Shown here piece after piece: positions 34,071 through 62,495 of a stretch of DNA of 64,000 nucleotides. Position numbers and translations under genes: made by a program. Positions within the stretch are counted from its first letter, which is position 1. The number at the start of each line of letters is the position of its first letter. The DNA comes from Sneathiella sp. HT1-7 (GTDB lineage Bacteria; Pseudomonadota; Alphaproteobacteria; Sneathiellales; Sneathiellaceae). The stretch is from contig NZ_JAJFZN010000001.1 of NCBI RefSeq assembly GCF_020731145.1, positions 310,001-374,000 of the forward strand. Direction: 5' to 3'. The notes under the pieces are model-generated. The model was not told the origin of the DNA, searched no databases, and was given only the letters and a program-made list of their open reading frames with translations.

Positions 34071-34622
34071 ATGAGTAAATTTCTTGCGATTGATTTTGAA
34101 ACGGCGAATAACGCGCCAGATAGCGCCTGCGCCATCGGTCTTGTTCGGGGGGAAAATGGAAAAATTGTTCAAGAAGAATCTTTCCTGATCCGCCCGCCGA
34201 GCCCGGAATTCTTTTTCACTCATATCCATGGACTGACATGGGAACATGTAATGGATGCGCCTGATTTCGGATTGCTCTGGCCGGACATTGCGCCTCTATT
34301 CGAAGGTGTGGATTTTCTCGCTGCACATAATGCAGGCTTTGATTCGCGTGTGCTTAAAAGCTGCTGCTCCCTCCATGATCTCACAATGCCCCATCAGGAA
34401 TTCACCTGCACGGTTAAGCTCGCCCGGGGCATGTGGGAGGTGCGGCCTACAAAACTTCCCAATGTTGCACATTTTCTGGGGCTGGACCTCAATCACCATG
34501 ACGCCCTTTCCGATAGTCGGGCCTGCGCGAATATTGTCCTCGCCGCAGAGCGGGACGGATGGTCGTTTGATACAGGGTATGACAATGTCGGCGAGCGCTA
34601 TATTGCCATTGATCAGATCTAA
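34071..34622 (+). CDS. DnaQ-type 3'-5' exonuclease
   Basis: A 183-residue DEDD exonuclease similar to the epsilon proofreading domain. Exo I is AIDFETAN with D8 and E10, Exo II is LAAHNAGFDSRVL, and Exo IIIh is NHHDALSDSRA with the histidine and final aspartate. There is no C-terminal BRCT or PHP domain. It could act in DNA repair or RNA trimming. It starts 29 bases after the acyl-CoA ligase gene, probably a chance neighbour. Confidence 0.9.
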   Translation: MSKFLAIDFETANNAPDSACAIGLVRGENGKIVQEESFLIRPPSPEFFFTHIHGLTWEHVMDAPDFGLLWPDIAPLFEGVDFLAAHNAGFDSRVLKSCCSLHDLTMPHQEFTCTVKLARGMWEVRPTKLPNVAHFLGLDLNHHDALSDSRACANIVLAAERDGWSFDTGYDNVGERYIAIDQI

Positions 34623-34637
34623 ATTTCTCGAAATTAT

Positions 34638-34652
34638 TGCGAATCGTTCTCA
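34638..34652. promoter_or_regulatory. Fur-family box 1
   Basis: TGCGAATCGTTCTCA has the 7-1-7 inverted layout of a Fur or Mur box and sits in a longer dyad, ATTG.GAA.c.TTC.CAAT. It lies upstream of the -35 hexamer of the promoter at 34660-34688. Fur represses with iron; Mur, its alphaproteobacterial manganese-sensing relative, uses very similar boxes. Confidence 0.65.
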
Positions 34653-34659
34653 ATATCTA

Positions 34660-34688
34660 TTGACGGGATCGTTCGGCTAATATTTAAT
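34660..34688 (+). promoter_or_regulatory. Sigma-70 promoter between two Fur boxes
   Basis: TTGACG (34660-34665) and TTTAAT (34683-34688) are 17 bases apart, giving a predicted start near 34695 inside Fur box 2. The placement of one box upstream of -35 and one over the start site is typical of metal-repressed promoters. Confidence 0.55.
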
Positions 34689-34690
34689 AA

Positions 34691-34705
34691 TGCAAATCAT
34701 TTGCA
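34691..34705. promoter_or_regulatory. Fur-family box 2, perfect palindrome
   Basis: TGCAAATCATTTGCA is a perfect 7-1-7 palindrome. It covers the predicted transcription start and would block initiation when bound by metal-loaded Fur or Mur. Confidence 0.7.
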
Positions 34706-34720
34706 ATATGGAAATGCCCG

Positions 34721-34891
34721 ATGATCCGAATCAGATGCCTCTCACCCGCTGCAATGGCTTCTCTTCTCACAAAGACCGCAGAAGAACAACGTGCTGCCGG
34801 CAGACAGCCTTGCAAACATTTAAATGAAGGATTTGGAGATCCGCATATTTTATATTATGCCAAGGCACAAAAAGAAGGGCGGTCCCGGTAA
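34721..34891 (+). CDS. Candidate 56-residue protein under Fur boxes
   Basis: A short reading frame (begins MIRIRCLSPAAMASLLTK, ends AKAQKEGRSR) lies just downstream of the double Fur box. It fills nearly the whole candidate transcript and its stop falls in the loop of the terminator hairpin. There is a weak GGAA eight bases before the ATG. I recognise no family; it has two cysteines and is basic. It is not similar to the iron-regulated small protein HemP. It may be a real small protein or a chance frame in a regulatory RNA. Confidence 0.35.
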   Translation: MIRIRCLSPAAMASLLTKTAEEQRAAGRQPCKHLNEGFGDPHILYYAKAQKEGRSR

Positions 34892-34907
34892 ACCCGGAAC
34901 CGCCCTT
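34875..34907. terminator. Bidirectional intrinsic terminator
   Basis: A 14-bp stem (34875-34888 with 34894-34907, one mismatch, five-base loop) of high GC content. On the minus strand it is followed by CTTTTT and would end the 68-residue basic protein gene; on the plus strand AACTTTT follows and would end the Fur-box transcript. Confidence 0.8.
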
Positions 34908-34927
34908 AACTTTTCAATACGCTATAT

Positions 34928-35134
34928 TCAGGCTGCAGCGCGTGTCGCGGCCTGGACTTTCTTCAACTGACGCCGGGCCGCGTGACGACCATGGGCTTTC
35001 AAATTCATTTTACGGGCTGCGCGCTGCTGATTGGACCGGCTGCTCTTGGTCAGTCCGCTCCCGCTTCCGCCGCCGCCTTTTTTACGGCTCTTGCCGCCCT
35101 GATTGCGGCCATTCCGTGCTGATCTCGCTGTCAT
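34928..35134 (-). CDS. Small, highly basic protein, unknown
   Basis: A 68-residue protein rich in Arg, Lys, Gly, Ser and Ala and with almost no acidic residues. The N-terminal half is glycine/serine-rich with KSRKKGGGG, and the C-terminal half forms a basic helix (NLKAHGRHAARRQLKKVQAA). GGAG precedes the ATG by 8 bases and a terminator follows 21 bases after the stop, so it is very likely expressed. Composition suggests nucleic-acid binding, for example nucleoid or ribosome association. I do not recognise a family. Confidence 0.65.
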   Translation of the reverse strand: MTARSARNGRNQGGKSRKKGGGGSGSGLTKSSRSNQQRAARKMNLKAHGRHAARRQLKKVQAATRAAA

Positions 35135-35624: not shown

Positions 35625-35646
35625 TTGACGTTAACGTAAACGTCAA
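35625..35646. promoter_or_regulatory. 22-bp MerR/LiuR-type operator
   Basis: A near-perfect palindrome with arms TTGACGTT and AACGTCAA around AACGTA. It is almost identical to the palindrome before the MerR gene at 47902-47923. It lies between the divergent SCP2 and SDR genes, 80 and 95 bases from their starts, and may control both. LiuR-type MerR regulators of acyl-CoA catabolism bind sites of this kind. Confidence 0.7.
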
Positions 35647-47416: not shown

Positions 47417-47857
47417 TCAGGCAATGGTTTTTCTGCAGCCGTCCGCCGCTAAGTCGCCGGACGCTAAATGTTCCTTCAACTGGGAGATACCGTCTTCCAG
47501 TTCTGAGATGGCCTCATTTATATCAGCCCTTTGCGTGATTAGCTTTTCGAGCTGCTCTTCGCATTTATTCAGGGTGAAGGTGAGTTGCCCTGTACTACCG
47601 CTCTCCGGCGAGTACATATCCAGCATCTTCTTGATATCTTGCAGACTAAAGCCGAGGCGACGACCCCGCAGGATAATCTTTAGCCGCCCGCGGTCTTTAC
47701 GGGAATAAATACGTGTTGTGCCTTCCCGCGCGGGATTCACAAGCCCTTTGTCCTCGTAAAAACGAATTGTGCGGGAGGTTACACCGAATTCCTCAGCAAG
47801 CTCCGTGATGGAGAAGCTGACACGACCTTCTTTGTCAATTTCTGCTCTGGCATTCAT
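47417..47857 (-). CDS. MerR family regulator, LiuR-like
   Basis: A 146-residue MerR-family regulator. The winged helix is at residues 14-80: SITELAEEFGVTSRTIRFYEDKGL, then REGTTRIYSRKDRGRLKIILRGRRLGFSLQDI. A dimerisation coiled coil follows (LNKCEEQLEKLITQRADINEAI) and a single C-terminal cysteine (DGCRKT). Its position next to beta-oxidation genes and the palindrome 45 bases upstream match LiuR-type regulators of branched-chain and short acyl-CoA catabolism in proteobacteria. Autoregulation is likely because the same palindrome precedes its own gene. Confidence 0.9.
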   Translation of the reverse strand: MNARAEIDKEGRVSFSITELAEEFGVTSRTIRFYEDKGLVNPAREGTTRIYSRKDRGRLKIILRGRRLGFSLQDIKKMLDMYSPESGSTGQLTFTLNKCEEQLEKLITQRADINEAISELEDGISQLKEHLASGDLAADGCRKTIA

Positions 47858-47901: not shown

Positions 47902-47923
47902 TTTACGTTTACGTAAACGTCAA
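47902..47923. promoter_or_regulatory. 22-bp MerR/LiuR-type operator before the MerR gene
   Basis: A palindrome with arms TTTACGTT and AACGTCAA around TACGTA, nearly the same as the one at 35625-35646. It lies 45 bases upstream of the MerR start and about 85 bases from the divergent DUF962 gene. Confidence 0.75.
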
Positions 47924-62037: not shown

Positions 62038-62081
62038 GTCATTCTCCTGTTTTCGTCTCACCCGACGAATTGTCTTTACGT

Positions 62082-62268
62082 CCTGTCAGCGGCAGGTCTC
62101 CTGGCTTGCGCTATCACGGTGCTTTCTACCTTCCCAGAATGATCCAGTGGCATCTTTGAAAGCCCCTTCGCGCTAACAGTTGCGGGGGCAGCCATAGAAT
62201 TGGACGCTAAACCGTCCTCACTATATTCCCTTTTAACTGACCGATAAAATCGATAGAACCGCCTTCGG
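62082..62268 (-). promoter_or_regulatory. Cobalamin riboswitch
   Basis: On the minus strand the conserved core is clear: TTAAAAGGGAA at the junction, GCTGCCCCCGCAACTGT, GATGCCACTG, GGGAAGG, and the B12 box GCCAGGAGACCTGCC. It sits 45 bases upstream of the hupE start. Binding of adenosylcobalamin would lower expression of the cobalt transporter. Confidence 0.96.
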
Positions 62269-62495
62269 CAAACTCTATCAACTGCCATCGATGATGACCA
62301 GCGGCAATTACTGCCAATTGAAATCTTTTGCAGGCAGAGAGCAGACTGAAATGATAGTTTCGACGAGATGTTATCGGGTATTTTTAGGTCTCACATCTCA
62401 TATATTAAAATAATTCTAAAAACTACTTGCATAAATTTCTGAGCTGAATATATATGGCTCACGACAAGAATTTGCATACTGATGGAGTTAAAAAG

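Follow-up and report, generated by a model that had tools for sequence, protein, structure and literature searches.

A Fur-type promoter followed by a small protein gene

The region between the stop codon of an exonuclease gene and a convergent 68-aa frame (34630-34910 of the window, which is the whole 64-kb stretch of DNA analysed) probably holds a monocistronic gene of the Fur regulon. Its product would be a basic protein of 56 aa that is induced by iron starvation, docks through its N-terminal 25 residues and has a role in iron sparing or iron uptake. The gene is conserved across Sneathiella together with its promoter and boxes, shows coding selection and belongs to no known family.

The promoter, boxes and frame of the unit lie on the plus strand. 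Fur-type box 1 (TGCGAATCGTTCTCA, 34638-34652) is located just upstream of the -35 element TTGACG (34660-34665), which is recognized by sequence and conservation and is separated by a 17-nt spacer from the -10 element TTTAAT (34683-34688). Fur-type box 2 (TGCAAATCATTTGCA, 34691-34705) overlies the predicted transcription start at about 34695-34697. A Shine-Dalgarno-like GGAA (34710-34713) follows 7 nt 5' of the ATG of the 56-codon protein gene MIRIRCLSPAAMASLLTKTAEEQRAAGRQPCKHLNEGFGDPHILYYAKAQKEGRSR (34721-34891), whose assignment builds on the open frame, its orthologues and coding selection. The initial annotation had described a TTGACG-17-TTTAAT promoter flanked by two 7-1-7 boxes, the second over the predicted start, and a 56-codon frame in a unit without any known gene. 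The promoter, boxes and frame are all found at these positions, the promoter elements are kept in relatives, and searches of the unit against Pfam and Rfam revealed no family inside it.

The promoter combination TTGACG-17-TTTAAT has a single exact match in the 64-kb window, the expectation for up to one mismatch being 0.25. Single boxes taken alone are at chance level: the 7-1-7 consensus TGATAATNATTATCA is matched at 10/14 or better at 24 sites in 64 kb, where simulated sequence gives 22 ± 5, and 58 of 200 simulations contain a pair of boxes 15-60 nt apart. A 64-kb sequence should thus contain matches of this kind by chance, so that the boxes are not significant from sequence alone; the strong evidence for them is their conservation across species.

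Conservation and loss across Sneathiella

To follow the unit through the genus, 25 Sneathiella genomes were searched with the exonuclease and the sequence downstream of it was read. This gene encodes a DEDD/RNase T-type 3'-5' exonuclease (34071..34622, plus strand; PF00929, E 7.6e-16); it lies outside the unit, is present in 23 of the 25 genomes and serves as the upstream syntenic anchor. Frame, promoter and box 2 stand behind the same exonuclease gene in 17 of the 23 genomes with the locus assembled. Among these 17 orthologous promoters, TTGAC[GC] occurs 17-18 nt 5' of TTTAAT or AATAAT in 15, TAATAAT and box 2 occupy the same place in every one, and box 1 is clear in 14, being weak or absent in G011, G004 and G012. 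Box 2 takes the form of the classical Fur box core, TAATAATGATTATCA, in the most divergent Sneathiella orthologues. Boxes that are not conserved among close relatives had been named beforehand as grounds for abandoning the proposal; on examination, the boxes are kept. Most relatives also keep the GGA, the start codon is retained, and the alignment gap amounts to one whole codon.

In the other six loci the whole unit is missing and the exonuclease gene is followed directly by the terminator of the convergent frame. These absences need three changes on the exonuclease tree, many branches of which are weakly supported, and the complete unit has therefore probably disappeared on more than one occasion. 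Since six Sneathiella genomes do without it, the gene is not essential.

Evidence for a translated frame

The short frames of the relatives begin with M[IV]x[IVL]RxL in all 17 Sneathiella loci. A comparison of 10 orthologues gave a ps of 0.70 against a pn of 0.20 for codons 1-25, with heterozygosities of 0.24, 0.15 and 0.49 at codon positions 1, 2 and 3, respectively; the C-terminal half is looser (0.62/0.39). Synonymous sites are near saturation across the species compared, and the amino-acid sequence is still conserved. As synonymous differences far exceed amino-acid-changing ones in codons 1-25, the 56-codon frame is, judging by this substitution pattern, a protein gene under purifying selection on its codons. 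Fortuitous promoter- and box-like sequence around a spurious frame, with no gene at all, would agree with box matches that by themselves occur at chance frequency in 64 kb and with a protein that lacks a family match. This explanation is rendered extremely improbable by promoter, boxes and amino acids that stay conserved over species whose synonymous sites are nearly saturated.

Terminator and RNA-based alternatives

A GC-rich hairpin at 34875-34907, a bidirectional terminator, overlaps the last codons of the 56-codon frame, and the stop codon falls within it. Its fold is strong in both directions (z -4.7 read on the plus strand and -6.4 on the minus strand). The strong terminator of the initial annotation is thus present as a hairpin, but the clean T-tract lies on the minus and not on the plus strand, where the tail reads TTAACTTTT; for this reason the hairpin serves the convergent 68-aa frame as terminator no less than the 56-codon frame. 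That frame (34928-35134, minus strand), Arg/Lys-rich and with Gly also prominent, has no match in Pfam or NCBIfam. Its position is conserved across Sneathiella, and it is found downstream of the exonuclease in the loci read, including those without the 56-aa gene. It probably shares no more than the terminator with the 56-aa gene, a functional link being unlikely.

A short unit with a Fur-type promoter, a strong terminator and a whole-transcript fold of z -3.2 resembles the genes of RyhB/PrrF-class sRNAs, and the initial annotation had accordingly allowed for an sRNA or a small protein. An RNA that is mainly an iron-responsive regulator, with the frame incidental, is nevertheless very unlikely. 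The fold excess comes from the terminator, since the transcript body without it has a z of +1.07, and three of the four compensatory pairs in the whole alignment fall within the terminator hairpin. Third codon positions vary most while amino acids are conserved, and a distant relative in the genome G388 keeps the protein motif in a different transcript. We looked in the alignment for RNA structure or sequence conserved without coding constraint, as in the RyhB class, and found none. Where the initial annotation suggested comparing the conservation of the 56 codons with that of RNA structure, it is the codons that are conserved, compensatory changes being essentially restricted to the terminator. 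With a transcript body no more structured than usual, the sRNA reading is not supported and was rejected on the basis of fold and covariation. Codon selection, the start codon, the SD-like GGA and the 17 orthologues argue for the small protein, so that, unlike in RyhB/PrrF-class units, the conserved information in Sneathiella is a protein and not an RNA.

Fur box and regulator

The genome encodes three proteins of the FUR family and no fourth: one closest to Fur, one IrrA, assigned above the family cut-off, and one Zur-like protein that adjoins a znuC-like ATPase. A box of the same type precedes hemP (PF10636, E 5.3e-14), with a TonB receptor plug-domain protein encoded behind it; a weaker box lies ahead of a solute-binding protein of the iron-transporter type. 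When up to three mismatches are allowed, the genome has 51 occurrences of TGCGAATCATTCTCA per strand, compared with 10 of the reversed control. As in known Fur regulons, a box conserved in orthologues lies over the core promoter, and the genome encodes Fur and carries similar boxes before known iron genes.

Fur, Irr and Zur are the only family members encoded, and boxes of this kind also occur upstream of hemP and of genes of the iron-transport type; Fe-Fur therefore appears the more likely regulator, rather than Mur. Between the two options of the initial annotation, iron through Fur or manganese through Mur, the former is favoured and the latter has become less likely. Mur, or a FUR-family protein other than the iron-responsive Fur, could be considered because box 2 (TGCAAATCATTTGCA) resembles manganese-type sites of Rhizobiales, an order in which the Fur-clade protein acts as Mur. 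Control of this kind is unlikely in a genome with one Fur-clade protein only, whose boxes precede hemP with its TonB receptor and an iron-type solute-binding protein; the classical Fur core in divergent orthologues and an imelysin gene adjoining one distant relative also argue against it. We infer iron control and Fur binding from the boxes; as the promoter carries two Fur-type sites, the small protein would probably be made only when iron is scarce. Neither Fur in Sneathiella nor the 56-aa protein was the subject of any paper found by searching the literature.

Several further sites were noted along the way. A family of about 170 aa without a Pfam match (L040 1558-2082 and L145 1764-2276) has its Sneathiella gene immediately downstream of a TGCGAATGATTATCA box, and its relative in G171 (25% identity) lies near an iron-type solute-binding protein; it is a candidate for another uncharacterised Fur target. 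Another candidate target is marked by a TGCGAATGATTTGCA box at L036 1501-1515, which has an ABC transporter gene on one side and, on the other, a divergent gene whose 360-aa product has a start resembling a signal peptide and no match in Pfam. Within the window, palindromic sites of the TTGACGTTNACGTNAA type occur at 35625-35646 and 47902-47923, the pattern having nine matches with up to two mismatches against 0.33 expected. One of the two is just upstream of a MerR-family-like gene (47417-47857, minus strand), and the other separates an SCP2-domain gene from an SDR/acyl-CoA dehydrogenase cluster; both resemble binding sites for an acyl-CoA catabolism regulator of the LiuR type. The window also contains a cobalamin riboswitch (62074-62278, minus strand; 103.7 bits).

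A conserved N-terminal motif and its distant relatives

The protein is basic, with 10 Arg/Lys against 5 Asp/Glu in its 56 aa. Its N-terminal 25 residues are conserved as M[IV]x[IVL]RxLxPxxLAxLLxxxAEE, and an AlphaFold2 model places a helix at residues 9-25 (pLDDT about 72-88) with low values for the remainder. The C-terminal half is a variable basic tail that is probably disordered. Searches of the protein and its orthologues against Pfam, NCBIfam and PHROGs yielded only isolated matches at chance level, none of 18 members matched the HemP domain PF10636, and the PDB gave no match by sequence or fold, the fold search returning nothing at E <= 0.001. A similarity of the motif to ribbon-helix-helix (FitA-like) proteins was considered; this reading was dropped because a second helix is not conserved and the PDB sequence and fold searches were empty.

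Distant relatives are rare and occur in two other alphaproteobacterial families. The relative in G388 combines a Fur-like box, TTGATATTGATTATCATTATTAATA, with a Shine-Dalgarno sequence and a 51-aa frame that carries the motif. In both G171 and G418 the relative is present twice. The G171 copies are without a clear Fur box and adjoin AphA_like and DUF2325 genes, and beside one copy lies a gene for imelysin, a protein linked to iron uptake. The G171 arrangement (L144 and L145) is a duplicated cluster of an AphA_like regulator, a 60-aa relative and a DUF2325 protein, with one cluster near the imelysin gene and the other near copper-ATPase-like and cytochrome-c-like frames. DUF2325 was considered as a general partner and set aside: the link is local, since DUF2325 is absent from the HT1-7 genome and found only in G171 among 190 genomes. 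A sample of other Pseudomonadota and the viral and plasmid collections searched yielded no credible relative. Weak profile matches in other genomes were discarded, as they fell within longer frames or in very short ones that lack boxes.

Functional parallels and proposed role

Small proteins under Fur control have been described in other bacteria. FbpA, FbpB and FbpC of Bacillus subtilis are Fur-regulated small basic proteins (FbpB has 48 aa) that work with the sRNA FsrA and are proposed iron-sparing effectors (PMC7430163). The 56-aa protein resembles them by description, being small, basic and encoded behind a Fur-type promoter; they belong to another bacterial phylum and have FsrA as partner, whereas the Sneathiella protein has the conserved 25-residue N-terminal motif. 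Closer in taxonomy, CC0681 and CC0682 of the alphaproteobacterium Caulobacter crescentus are Fur-repressed hypothetical small proteins with a presumed role in iron sparing (PMC3751524), again a likeness by description; they form one putative operon with candidate sRNAs, in contrast to the monocistronic Sneathiella gene. By analogy, these two sets would be the nearest functional parallels and not family assignments. HemP is similar in size and promoter, the hemP of the same genome encoding 57 aa (L041 1607-1780) behind the same box type, but a TonB receptor gene follows it, and the 56-aa protein lacks its PF10636 domain.

The pairing of a Fur-controlled sRNA with small proteins in Bacillus (FsrA and FbpA/B/C; PMC7430163) and the Fur-repressed operon of small proteins and sRNAs proposed in Caulobacter (PMC3751524) suggest that one RNA might both be translated into the 56-aa protein and act by base pairing. 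The chance of such a dual function is small: neither alignment nor fold test reveals conserved structure outside the terminator, and with a leader of about 25 nt the RNA has little non-coding space.

Returning to a translated gene that is probably under Fur control, we propose that in iron-replete cells Fe-Fur would bind box 1, upstream of the -35 element, and box 2, at the start point, and thereby block RNA polymerase. When iron falls, Fur would leave, and a transcript of about 200 nt, starting near 34696 and ending at the hairpin (34875-34907), would be made and translated into the basic 56-aa protein. Its N-terminal 25 residues, an extended hydrophobic start and then a helix, might serve to dock a partner, either protein or RNA. 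Most likely the protein would be an adaptor or regulator in the response to iron starvation, in iron sparing or uptake.

Fur-controlled small proteins as such are already known, and the 56-aa protein forms a family of its own. We know of no RyhB-like RNA in bacteria carrying this family. More tentatively, it could represent an undescribed family of Fur-controlled small proteins with the 25-residue N-terminal motif, patchily distributed in Alphaproteobacteria, that act as effectors of iron sparing or uptake, either as adaptor or as RNA chaperone. Little is known in Alphaproteobacteria about the effectors that respond to iron starvation, and short genes frequently escape notice; the Sneathiella gene offers a concrete protein with orthologues, species with natural gene loss and a culturable carrier, S. 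chungangensis.
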